The translations under genes were made by a program, and so were the position numbers. The notes under the pieces were generated by a model that worked only from the letters and a program-made list of their open reading frames with translations, did no database searches and was not told the DNA's origin. From Oceanibacterium hippocampi (GTDB lineage Bacteria; Pseudomonadota; Alphaproteobacteria; Sneathiellales; Sneathiellaceae): a DNA stretch of 64,000 nt. The DNA is taken from NCBI RefSeq assembly GCF_900172325.1, contig NZ_FWFR01000001.1, forward strand, positions 1-64,000, given 5' to 3'. Below are positions 29,571-33,252 of this stretch, piece by piece (position 1 is the first letter of the stretch; the number at the start of each line of letters is the position of its first letter).

Positions 29571-30035
29571 GTGATGGTACTGGATCGCTTGAAATCACTG
29601 TTCGTCGGAATTGAATCCGGCGAGTCCCCGCGCCCGACCCGCGACGAGAAAGCCTTCTCGGCCGCGGCTCTCCTGGTCGAGGCCGCCGCCTTCGACGATC
29701 GGGTCGACAGCGAGGAGATGGCCACAATCCGGGCCATCCTGACCGACCGCTTCGCCCTGTCACCGGAAGAGGCCGGTGGCCTGCTGGAAGAAGCGCGGAA
29801 CCTGCAGGCAACGAGCAACGACCTGCACGGCTTCACCCGCCGCATCAAGGAACATTTCCCGCCGGAAGAACGGATCGGCATCATCGAGATGCTCTGGGAA
29901 GTCGCCTATGCGGACGGCGAATTGCACGACTTCGAAGCAAACCTCTTGCGTCGCGTTTGCGGCCTGATTTATGTCTCTGACAGTCAGAGTGGCGCCGCGC
30001 GCAAGCGCGTCCTGGCGCGCCTCGGGCTTGAGTAA
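29571..30035 (+). CDS. TerB family protein
   Basis: This 154-residue protein has the all-helical TerB/TerB-like fold: [24 protein letters not shown], then [24 protein letters not shown] with the paired acidic residues that can bind metal. The family was named after tellurite resistance, but stand-alone alphaproteobacterial copies like this one have no proven tellurite role. Two adjacent starts are possible, GTG at 29571 or ATG at 29574. It lies upstream of fdxA, a common order. Confidence 0.85.
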
Positions 30036-30130
30036 CCGCCGATCGGCTTATCCGCCCAGGCGATCGGTTCCGGATCGTTTCCGGGCGCCCGTTGGAAAGA
30101 CACCCGTGCCAGGGTGAAGGGGAGAGCAGA

Positions 30131-30469
30131 ATGACCTACGTCGTCACGGACCCGTGCATCAAGTGCAAGTACATGGATTGCGTCGAGGTCTGTCCCGTCG
30201 ACTGCTTCTATGAAGGCGAGAACATGCTCGTCATTCATCCCGACGAATGCATCGACTGCGGCGTCTGCGAGCCCGAATGCCCGCCGGAAGCGATCATTCC
30301 GGACACCGAGGGCGACGTCGATGTCTGGGTCGAACGCAACCGCGAATATTCCGAGATCTGGCCGAACATCACCCGCAAGGGCGAGTCCCCGGCGGACGCC
30401 GACAAGTGGCGCGACGTCAAGAACAAGTGGGACGAACATTTCAGCGAGAAACCCGGCACCGGCAGCTGA
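30131..30469 (+). CDS. fdxA: Ferredoxin FdxA (7Fe type)
   Basis: This 112-residue ferredoxin carries [3Fe-4S] and [4Fe-4S] clusters. The cysteine patterns [18 protein letters not shown] and [12 protein letters not shown] are intact, with the C-terminal extension ([17 protein letters not shown]) typical of the Azotobacter FdI-like group. The ATG at 30131 follows AGGGGAG with good spacing. Electron partners are not visible locally. It is upstream of carD but the 466-bp gap and an internal promoter suggest separate transcription. Confidence 0.96.
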
Positions 30470-30935
30470 GCCGCCCTGCCGCGAAACGTCGCTCCGTCGG
30501 CCTGAGCCGGCACGCCGCCGAAACACGCATTGCGCGAAATTCGCATGGCTCCCATGCGCCGAAGTCACGGCGGCGGGCGGCGATCGCCCTTCATAGTAGA
30601 AATTCGTAATAATACGCCGGAAGTCGGCTTTCTCAACTTCCCCGCCGGTTCCCCCGCGACAATTTCGCCCCGACCCGCAAGAAATCACCCGACCGATCCC
30701 TCGGGACCACGGTGATTTGTTATTGGGCCAAATTGTGCTATATTTGTTACGGTAGAGCTTGGGGAGACGGGGTGACGATCTTGGTCGCCCGCCGCTGAGC
30801 GGGTAGCGTGTACACTTCGCCCGGCCCGGGTCCTTGCAGCTTCGTGTTAATGAAATGTAGTGCGCAGTCGCGCCTGTGAACATCAGGGGCGTGCGCTTGT
30901 TTTTGCGGCATTTTCAAAGGCGAGATCGGCACGAC
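30470..30935. other. Long gap between fdxA and carD: promoter and leader
   Basis: No convincing protein gene lies in these 466 bases. The first part has a small stem right after fdxA (CGGCAG..CTGCCG) without a T-run. A clear promoter is at 30717-30744. From there to the carD start is a leader of about 185 bases with GC-rich foldable parts, including CCCGC..GCGGG near 30788-30803 and the palindrome CCCGGCCCGGG near 30820-30830. The leader could be regulatory or a small RNA; nothing in it matches a riboswitch I recognise. Confidence 0.6.
30717..30744 (+). promoter_or_regulatory. Extended -10 promoter of carD
   Basis: TTGTTA (30717-30722) and TATATT (30739-30744) are 16 bases apart and the -10 is preceded by TGC, an extended -10. 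The surrounding AT-rich sequence stands out from the GC-rich neighbourhood. It is correctly placed to make a long carD leader. Confidence 0.6.
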
Positions 30936-31433
30936 ATGAGCAAAGCGCTGGAATTTTCTCCGAAGGACCACGTGGTTTACCCGACGCACGGCGTCGGGCA
31001 GATTTCCTCGATCGAGGAGCAGGAAATCTCCGGCATGAAGCTGAAGCTTTATGTCATCGAGTTCGCGCATGAGAAAATGACCCTTCGCGTGCCGATCGGG
31101 CAGGTCAAGAATGTCGGCATGCGCAAGCTCTCGACGCCGAAGAAGATGAAGACGGCGATCGAGACCCTGAAAGGCCGCGCCCGCGTGAAGCGCACGATGT
31201 GGAGCCGGCGGGCACAGGAATACGAAGCCAAGATCAATTCCGGCGATCCGATCTCGATCGCCGAGGTGGTCCGCGACCTGCACCGCAATTCCGGTCAGCC
31301 CGACCAGTCCTACAGCGAGCGCCAGATCTACGAGGCGGCGTTCGACCGGCTGGTTCGCGAGTTCGCCGCGGTCGAGGAGATCGACACGACCCAGGCCGGC
31401 GAGCGCCTGCAGAAGATCCTCGAAGTCGAGTAA
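30936..31433 (+). CDS. carD: CarD family RNA polymerase-binding regulator (CdnL)
   Basis: CarD/CdnL binds the RNA polymerase beta subunit and stabilises open promoter complexes, notably at rRNA and growth genes. The 165-residue protein starts with the Tudor-like RNAP-interaction domain (DHVVYPTHGVGQISSIE...LKLYVIEFA) and continues with the helical DNA-binding domain (RRAQEYEAKINSGD, SYSERQIYEAAFDRLVRE). The ATG at 30936 gives the standard length; the in-frame residues upstream are not conserved. It has its own promoter and a long leader. Confidence 0.96.
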   Translation: MSKALEFSPKDHVVYPTHGVGQISSIEEQEISGMKLKLYVIEFAHEKMTLRVPIGQVKNVGMRKLSTPKKMKTAIETLKGRARVKRTMWSRRAQEYEAKINSGDPISIAEVVRDLHRNSGQPDQSYSERQIYEAAFDRLVREFAAVEEIDTTQAGERLQKILEVE

Positions 31434-31444
31434 TCCCGTCGCGC

Positions 31445-31480
31445 GGCGCCCTGCGGAGCCGCCCCTGCGCCGCAGGCGCC
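31445..31480. terminator. GC hairpin after carD
   Basis: GGCGCC-C-TGCGG pairs with CCGCA-GGCGCC: an 11-bp stem with one bulged C and a 13-base loop, starting 12 bases after the carD stop. There is no T-run, so it may be a weak terminator or an mRNA 3'-end stabiliser. Confidence 0.4.
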
Positions 31481-31505
31481 CCCTATCGCGAGGTCGGTGA
31501 CGGCG

Positions 31506-32312
31506 ATGCCGCCACAAGGCAGCGAAGTATTCGCCAGTCTGGATCATGCCGGGCGCGTCTGGGCGGTCGCCCCGGTGGCCGGGCGGTCGGCCAAGCTCGC
31601 GCGCCTGCACGATCAGTTGGCCAACGCCTGGAGGCTCGGCGACCGGCTGGTCTATCTCGGTGATTACCTGGCGCCGGGCCCGGATATCGTCGGCACGCTC
31701 GACGAGTTGCTGATGTTCCGGCGCGAGCTGCTCTGCCGCCCCGGGATGGAGCCGGGCGACATCGCCTATCTGCGCGGCGCGCAGGAAGAAATCTGGCGCA
31801 AGCTGCTCCAGCTTCAGTTCGCGACCGACCCGATCGGCGTCTTCGACTGGATGCTGCGCCAGGGCATCGGCGCGGCCATTGAAGCCTATGGCGACGACGT
31901 CGAGCGGGCGCGCAATCACTTCCGTGCCGGCGCCCAGGCGACAACCCGCTGGAGCGGCGAGATGAGCGCCCGCATGCGTGCCCATCCCGGCCATGACGAT
32001 ATCCTCGCGGGCCTCCGGCGCGCTGCCTACACGGCCGAGGGAACCCTGCTGTTCGTCCATGCGGGGATCGACCCGGATCGTCCACTCGCCGCCCAGAACG
32101 ATACCTTCTGGTGGGGCAGCCGCCGCTTTGCCGACATGGCCGAACCGTACGAGGGCTTCCGCCTGGTGGTGCGCGGCCGCGACCGGGAGCGACATGGCGA
32201 GGGCGCGGGAACCTACTGGCTGACGATCGACGGCGGCAGCGGCGACACCGGCACGCTCAACGCCGGCTGCTTCTCTCATGAAGGCGAACTCGTCGACCTG
32301 ATCGAGGTCTGA
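31506..32312 (+). CDS. Degenerate PPP-type metallophosphoesterase homologue, probably inactive
   Basis: This 268-residue protein follows the layout of bacterial PPP-family Ser/Thr phosphatases (PrpA type), but most metal-site residues are gone. GDxHG is replaced by APVAG (residues 22-26), GDYxDRG by GDYLAPG (52-58, the first Asp kept), GNHE by GAQE (91-94) and the late GH motif by RGRDR. The late HAGIDPDRPLA with its histidine and the end IDGGSGDTGTLNAGCF (family: IDTGA..G.LTA) remain. The pattern fits a pseudo-phosphatase used for binding, not catalysis. The ATG at 31506 follows GAGGT; a GTG at 31497 is possible. It follows carD in the same direction. The codon pattern is intact with no frameshift, so it is probably expressed. 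Confidence 0.7.
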   Translation: MPPQGSEVFASLDHAGRVWAVAPVAGRSAKLARLHDQLANAWRLGDRLVYLGDYLAPGPDIVGTLDELLMFRRELLCRPGMEPGDIAYLRGAQEEIWRKLLQLQFATDPIGVFDWMLRQGIGAAIEAYGDDVERARNHFRAGAQATTRWSGEMSARMRAHPGHDDILAGLRRAAYTAEGTLLFVHAGIDPDRPLAAQNDTFWWGSRRFADMAEPYEGFRLVVRGRDRERHGEGAGTYWLTIDGGSGDTGTLNAGCFSHEGELVDLIEV

Positions 32313-32325
32313 CGGCCACGGCCGA

Positions 32326-33252
32326 TCAGATGATCGGCGTCTCCCGCGTCGTCTCCTCGAACAGCCAGTCGCGGAAGGCCACGACCTTTGGCCGCTCCGC
32401 GTGCGCCGGCGGGTAGACGATATAGTAGGCAAATTCGGTCGCTTCATAGGCCTCGGCCCTGAACGGCCGCACGAGACGCCCTTCCGCCAGCATGCTTTCC
32501 GCCACCGCCCCGGACAGCAGCGCCACGCCCTGGCCGCCGAGTGCCGCCTGCATGGCGAAACCCTCGATCGTGAAGCGCGGCCCTCGATCCACGTCGATCC
32601 CCTTCAGGCCGGCCGCCGTTATCCAGCTTCGCCAGGTGGTCGCGGTTGCCTGGTCGCCGCCGCGCCATTGCACGTGAAGCAGCGTATGGCGTGCCAGATC
32701 CGCCGGCGCCTTGAGCGCATTCGGCCCGTTCAGCAGCTTCGGGCTGCACACCGGAAAGACGGTTTCCGCCATCAGCCGATGCGAGATCAGACCCGGATAC
32801 TTGCCGCGGCCGTATCGCAGGCCGAGGTCGACACGCTCGCGGACGAAATCGACCAGCGCATCGTTCGCATCGATCCGGACATCGTACTGCGGCCAGGCCA
32901 GCCGGAAACGCTCCAGCCGCGGCACCAGCCAGCTTGCGCCGAACGACGGCATCACGCTGACGGTAAGGATCTCACTGTCGTGGGGCAGCCGCATCAGGTC
33001 GACCGCCTCGGCGAACCGATCCATGGCCTCCCGGAGCGATGGCAGTGCCGCCCTCCCGGCTTCCGTCAGCAGCAGTGACCGGGTCAGGCGCCGGAACAGC
33101 GGCACCCCGACGAAAGACTCCAGCAACTTGACCTGCTGGCTGATCGCCGCCGGGGTCACCGCCAGTTCGTCGGCCGCCTTCTTGAAGCTCAGATGGCGGG
33201 CCGCCGCCTCGAAGGCGCGAAGCGAATTGAGCGGCGGCAGGCGACGGGTCAC
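32326..33252 (-). CDS. LysR family regulator, GcvA-like
   Basis: This 308-residue transcription factor has the N-terminal LysR helix-turn-helix (LNSLRAFEAAARHLSFKKAA, then TPAAISQQVKLLE) and a periplasmic-binding-like effector domain (VDLGLRYGRGKYPGLISHRL). RRLPPLNSLRAFEAAARH is the mark of the GcvA subgroup. I choose GTG at 33252, since the usual start is (M)TRRLPPL; a TTG at 33267 would add five residues. It diverges from a DUF1127 gene. Targets are unknown; an 11-bp direct repeat in the divergent gap may matter. Confidence 0.92.
   Translation of the reverse strand: MTRRLPPLNSLRAFEAAARHLSFKKAADELAVTPAAISQQVKLLESFVGVPLFRRLTRSLLLTEAGRAALPSLREAMDRFAEAVDLMRLPHDSEILTVSVMPSFGASWLVPRLERFRLAWPQYDVRIDANDALVDFVRERVDLGLRYGRGKYPGLISHRLMAETVFPVCSPKLLNGPNALKAPADLARHTLLHVQWRGGDQATATTWRSWITAAGLKGIDVDRGPRFTIEGFAMQAALGGQGVALLSGAVAESMLAEGRLVRPFRAEAYEATEFAYYIVYPPAHAERPKVVAFRDWLFEETTRETPII

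Follow-up and report, generated by a model that had tools for sequence, protein, structure and literature searches.

The window, a stretch of 64,000 nucleotides from Oceanibacterium hippocampi, carries a gene just downstream of carD whose product follows the layout of PPP-family phosphatases yet has replaced most of the residues on which these enzymes depend. We refer to it as the pseudo-PPP gene and list it together with its motifs and its neighbors in Table 1. As the initial annotation had stated, its reading frame is clean, and its GC content at the three codon positions (0.73, 0.50, and 0.84) resembles that of the neighboring carD and secA genes. An open frame of 566 aa runs antisense to both carD and the pseudo-PPP gene (30747–32447, minus strand); a low third-position GC of 0.68 marks it as the kind of mechanical shadow frame that GC-rich DNA would be expected to produce.

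Table 1 Features of the carD/pseudo-PPP locus (positions in the window; counts refer to orthologues unless stated otherwise)
Feature	Position	Strand	Observation
TerB-domain gene of the conserved order	29571..30035	+	Pfam TerB, E 7.8e-36
Ferredoxin gene of the conserved order	30128..30469	+	Fer4 and DUF3470 matches; conserved upstream of carD
carD (CdnL), upstream neighbor	30936..31433	+	Pfam CarD_C, E 6e-25; CarD_TRCF_RID, E 4.5e-16
carD to pseudo-PPP gap	31434..31505	+	GC-rich hairpin, no T tract; no terminator called
Pseudo-PPP gene	31506..32312	+	268 aa plus stop; open frame, orthologues, predicted PPP fold
Motif 1, APVAG replacing GDxHG	31569..31583	+	Asp lost in 124/124, His kept in 101/124
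Motif 2, GDYLAPG replacing GDYxDRG	31659..31679	+	Asn at the first Asp position in 109/124; no DRG Asp in any of the 124
Motif 3, GAQE replacing GNHE, and the family-specific conserved helix after it	31770..31853	+	catalytic His is Gln in 116/124
HAG motif, retained	32058..32066	+	His kept in 81/124
WWGS replacing the second clamp Arg (xWIR)	32109..32120	+	Arg in 8/8 active paralogues
RGRDR replacing the last (H)GH motif	32172..32186	+	first His is Arg in 112/124

Searched on its own, the window protein had no match in Pfam or NCBIfam, phmmer returned nothing from the PDB, and a single-sequence scan of the genome contigs found no relative; the relatives came to light only through whole-genome and profile searches. 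Pfam Metallophos (PF00149) matched neither the window protein nor any of 32 family members at an E-value of 0.01, and a weak match (E 5.9e-5) connected the window protein to phrog_246, a phage NinI-like Ser/Thr phosphatase family. An AlphaFold model derived from the orthologue alignment (pLDDT 92.6, pTM 0.91) found its best PDB match by Foldseek in 2qjc, a putative Ap4A phosphatase (E 9.2e-9, probability 1.00), with lambda phosphatase, PP5, PP1, and PP2A among the other top matches (top hits E 9e-9 to 1e-6). Profile–profile alignment with hhalign of 32 orthologues against eight intact PPPs gave a probability of 99.6% (E 4.9e-25), a value that, taken together with the Foldseek result, excludes a chance resemblance. 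On modeled structure and sequence profiles, the protein is thus a member by descent of the PPP fold family, with a predicted metallophosphoesterase fold and the PPP order of motifs. This bears out the PPP layout proposed in the initial annotation: fold and profile searches both returned PPP phosphatases, and no sign of a missing PPP fold was seen.

In whole-genome searches, orthologues in related genomes were ~38–55% identical to the window protein, whereas the second matches were much weaker (~27–37%) and corresponded to PPP phosphatases with an intact site. The genome from which the window comes encodes one such protein (G000:C13:36445–37161; predicted model with pLDDT 81), in which all canonical motifs are present. 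Such alphaproteobacterial PPP paralogues are the closest active relatives, scoring 39–64 bits as compared with 15 for PphB, 9 for ApaH (8.7, E. coli ApaH), and 7 for PphA. The ApaH model (NF001204) weakly matched 16 of the 32 members (best E 6.5e-7) and did not match the window protein; ApaH as the closest relative, a candidate hinted at by these matches, is ruled out by the bit scores.

To set the homology of the motifs, we aligned the family with eight intact PPP paralogues (GDIHG, GDYVDRG, GNHE, HAG, VHGH) and counted residues in 124 non-redundant orthologues, a set that extends to the most distant members we found. The four substituted motifs of the window protein stand exactly where they had been placed from its sequence—APVAG at residues 22–26, GDYLAPG at 52–58, GAQE at 91–94, and RGRDR at 223–227—and D53 of motif 2 and H185 of HAG (185–187) are, as claimed, the only surviving metal ligands. 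The window protein therefore lacks the motif set of a PPP enzyme (the metal ligands of GDxHG-GDxxDRG-GNHE-H-H and the catalytic His). The two-arginine phosphate clamp is gone as well, Pro57 and Ser205 occupying its positions.

The replacements are largely the same throughout the family and are fixed. The motif-1 Asp position holds Ala in 76 orthologues, Ser in 34, Cys in 10, and Pro in 4, and Asp in none; the first Asp position of motif 2 holds Asn in 109, Asp in 10, and Gly in 5, and at the DRG Asp position 122 of the 124 have Gly and none has Asp. Within GNHE, the Glu is kept in all 124 orthologues, the Asn in four, and the His in just two (lost in 122), with Gln in 116. Phe or Tyr takes the place of the last-motif metal His in 94 sequences, and five keep it. 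The first clamp arginine survives in 37 of 124 orthologues. The second was compared in 104 orthologues, most of which have Ser, Gly, Asn, Ala, or Pro at its position, and for 100 of them the listed residues do not include Arg. Accordingly, an intact metal site was found in none of the 124 orthologues, and the loss of catalytic residues is consistent, which upholds the initial annotation on this point too. The window protein departs from its family in carrying D53 where 109 of 124 have Asn and Ala25 where 101 keep His. Since the motif-1 and HAG histidines are often kept (101 and 81 of 124, respectively), relatives might still bind a single metal; the window protein is without the motif-1 His. 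Motif 3 and the helix that follows contain a run of conserved residues (R90, Q93, E94, E95, W97, Q102, Q104, A106, and W115).

Selection has maintained the gene. The median dN/dS over 114 close orthologue pairs was 0.083 (carD: 0.025), indicative of purifying selection, and of 69 alignment columns with conservation of 85% or more, 38 are family-specific, including the old active-site replacements N53, G56, Q93, and R223 as well as the helix after motif 3. A maximum-likelihood tree recovered the family as one clade (100/100 support) apart from the intact PPP paralogues. The window copy has lost more than the rest of the family (A25, A56, P57, and R225), which would be compatible with a pseudogene that is decaying and has survived here by chance. 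We consider this highly improbable: besides its clean frame and the low dN/dS of the family, the copy breaks only four of the 69 conserved columns (rank 31 of 124) and sits on a branch of ordinary length (0.56 versus a median of 0.61). Being an outlier in neither conservation nor branch length, it was rejected as a case of decay. Predicted fold, lost catalytic residues, and a gene kept under selection together describe a conserved, putatively dead phosphatase, and the retained non-catalytic role suggested in the initial annotation is strongly supported by the PPP fold, the losses in 124 of 124 orthologues, and purifying selection.

Of 386 alphaproteobacterial genomes drawn evenly, 143 have an orthologue, more than a third of those sampled. 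The cut fell in a clear score gap, no orthologue scoring worse than E 1e-52 and no other PPP better than E 1e-21; a tally of 145 genomes was reduced to 143 because two have only the weak kind of match. Among 299 genomes sampled from the phylum, all nine matches came from the same class, Alphaproteobacteria. Named carriers include Sneathiella, Magnetospirillum, Paramagnetospirillum, Ferrovibrio, Zavarzinia, Tistlia, Oceanibaculum, and Desertibaculum. Neither Pfam nor NCBIfam holds a model of its own for the family, so its members are likely annotated as hypothetical proteins, or as phosphatases, an activity that they would lack. The intact paralogue was missing from five of ten carriers outside the window's family, arguing that the pseudo-PPP protein is not merely a regulator of that enzyme; we rejected this as its sole role on these grounds.

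Adjacency was scored in 100 carriers for which the position of carD was also recorded. In 84 of them carD lies directly upstream on the same strand, so the adjacency seen in the window is conserved. Another four have it 1.3–1.4 kb upstream, and at most 12 have it at a different place, some of these perhaps reflecting contig breaks. The common order comprises a helicase gene, a gene for an S4-domain protein, the TerB-domain and ferredoxin genes, carD, and the pseudo-PPP gene, followed in many genomes by rpoH. Directly 3′ of the pseudo-PPP gene, rpoH was observed in many carriers (loci L040, L194, L187, L189, L192, and L185); at L040 and L194 the pseudo-PPP gene is away from carD and rpoH is still next to it. 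The order is no different in genomes that do not have the gene, where rpoH or other genes come after carD, arguing that the pseudo-PPP gene fills a slot in an old and generally static arrangement. At two loci, L173 (G112:C52) and L122, carD is absent between ferredoxin and the pseudo-PPP gene; in the first of these genomes, G112, the pseudo-PPP gene adjoins ferredoxin, carD is gone from the locus, and the only carD match in the genome is diverged (E 6e-40).

In the window, 72 nt (82% GC) separate carD from the pseudo-PPP gene, and the RNA of this gap folds no better than shuffled sequences. Across 97 distinct carD-to-gene gaps, an intrinsic-terminator-like element was found in 44, where dinucleotide shuffles gave 1.75 on average and 5 at most, and in the Sneathiella genomes (L010–L029, L031) every gap examined contained one. 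In five Sneathiella gaps (L010, L016, L019, L025, and L027), a strong terminator precedes a promoter-like stretch that is similar among them and lies immediately 5′ of the start codon, reading GGACTTGCCAAG or near, then TTTCATTGT. In many lineages, the terminators argue for carD and the pseudo-PPP gene as separate transcription units, and they weaken the idea that the gene generally forms an operon with carD.

The initial annotation had deduced from the position after carD a link with transcription or stringent-type control. This deduction is weak in view of the terminators and of the same gene order in genomes without the gene, and it is weakened further by the genomes, as many as 12 of 100, that retain the pseudo-PPP gene away from carD. 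Nothing in the analysis ties the protein to stringent control, and a CarD link is unproven; a literature search for work joining carD, rpoH, ferredoxin, and a metallophosphoesterase found nothing relevant.

In one specific form of such a link, the pseudo-PPP protein would be dedicated to binding CarD, or RNA polymerase with CarD bound, and would change CarD activity or stability, for instance as an adaptor for starvation-dependent proteolysis. Beyond the immediate adjacency, this idea draws on Caulobacter, where CdnL is cleared by ClpXP in starvation via a C-terminal AA and an adaptor is one of the authors' suggestions for what triggers this turnover (PMC11034885). An AA end of this ClpXP degron type is found in 88 of 100 CarD neighbors at non-redundant loci. 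Protein distances within the family, too, track those of CarD better than those of ferredoxin (r 0.75 versus 0.51), a comparison that is suggestive only, because ferredoxin is short and slow and makes a poor control. The same neighborhoods, however, speak against a dedicated partnership: terminators interrupt many of the gaps, the gene order does not depend on the pseudo-PPP gene, the gene can lie away from carD, and in one carrier it stayed beside ferredoxin after carD had left the locus. Moreover, most carD-bearing genomes are without a pseudo-PPP gene (348 versus 143 genomes), and the window's own CarD has no AA end. We therefore regard a dedicated CarD partner as unlikely.

The window CarD terminates in LEVE (31416–31433). 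We considered whether its lost AA end goes along with the extra motif losses of the pseudo-PPP protein and discarded this idea, since only three CarD neighbors are without the final Ala and no usable correlation can be drawn.

PPP phosphatases work by an established two-metal mechanism. With metal ligands, catalytic His, and phosphate clamp lost, PPP catalysis is implausible, while a fold and family-specific cleft residues kept under selection point to binding. We thus think it very probable that the window protein belongs to a conserved alphaproteobacterial family of dead PPP-fold proteins that act by binding through a relined cleft. Such a protein would be unable to hydrolyze phosphoesters by the PPP mechanism and would instead serve as a regulatory subunit or a scaffold. 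Residues such as N53 (Asp here), R90, Q93, E95, W97, W203, and R223 would reline what used to be the catalytic cleft, a placement read from the motif positions, and this cleft may hold a protein partner or a small ligand. As a weak suggestion, the partner may come from the transcription or stress machinery represented by the neighboring carD and, in many relatives, rpoH. Extended to the whole class, this would give the pseudo-PPP protein an accessory regulatory role in transcription, coupling CarD, and possibly the heat-shock sigma factor RpoH, to a signal bound in the remodeled cleft, a scenario to which we give little credence.

Alternatively, the relined cleft might still serve an enzyme or ligand sensor, binding a nucleotide or alarmone such as Ap4A, as in ApaH/ALPH phosphatases, with or without slow turnover. 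The high conservation of polar cleft residues would fit, as would the putative Ap4A phosphatase as best structural match and the weak ApaH profile matches in half of the members tested. Yet the nearest active relatives are the alphaproteobacterial paralogues and not ApaH, and the arginines that would clamp a phosphate are lost in the window protein, the second one in nearly all relatives, which leaves this alternative improbable next to binding by a dead PPP fold.

Pseudoenzymes are a known kind of protein, and pseudophosphatases have been described mainly in eukaryotes and mainly in tyrosine-phosphatase families. A conserved bacterial family of PPP pseudophosphatases was not found in the reviews and papers searched, which cover the literature incompletely. 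As a single gene at a fixed locus in culturable hosts such as Sneathiella, Magnetospirillum, and Tistlia, the pseudo-PPP gene offers a clean system in which to study the bacterial use of a dead PPP fold, and it adjoins the gene of a global regulator, CarD.

Compared with PPP-family Ser/Thr phosphatases of the bacterial type (lambda PP, PphA/PphB, and the intact paralogue in the same genome), the pseudo-PPP protein shares the predicted fold, motif order, HAG motif, and similar length; it differs in lacking the metal ligands, catalytic His, and clamp arginines, and in adding family-specific insertions and the conserved helix after motif 3. The likeness to ApaH and ApaH-like (ALPH) Ap4A phosphatases lies in the 2qjc match and the weak profile matches, whereas the catalytic site is missing and the score to E. 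coli ApaH is low. PTP-type pseudophosphatases such as STYX and MK-STYX, in which a dead phosphatase serves as a binding module, have an unrelated fold and are analogous only in how they would work. The kinetoplastid PPP pseudophosphatases are eukaryotic PPP sequences that likewise have substituted catalytic residues and were proposed from sequence to be inactive (PMC2175518). A working analogy for binding by a metallophosphoesterase-type fold is provided by Vps29, a eukaryotic protein from another branch of the superfamily that uses its phosphoesterase fold as an interaction scaffold (Collins 2005, cited in PMC7182434).
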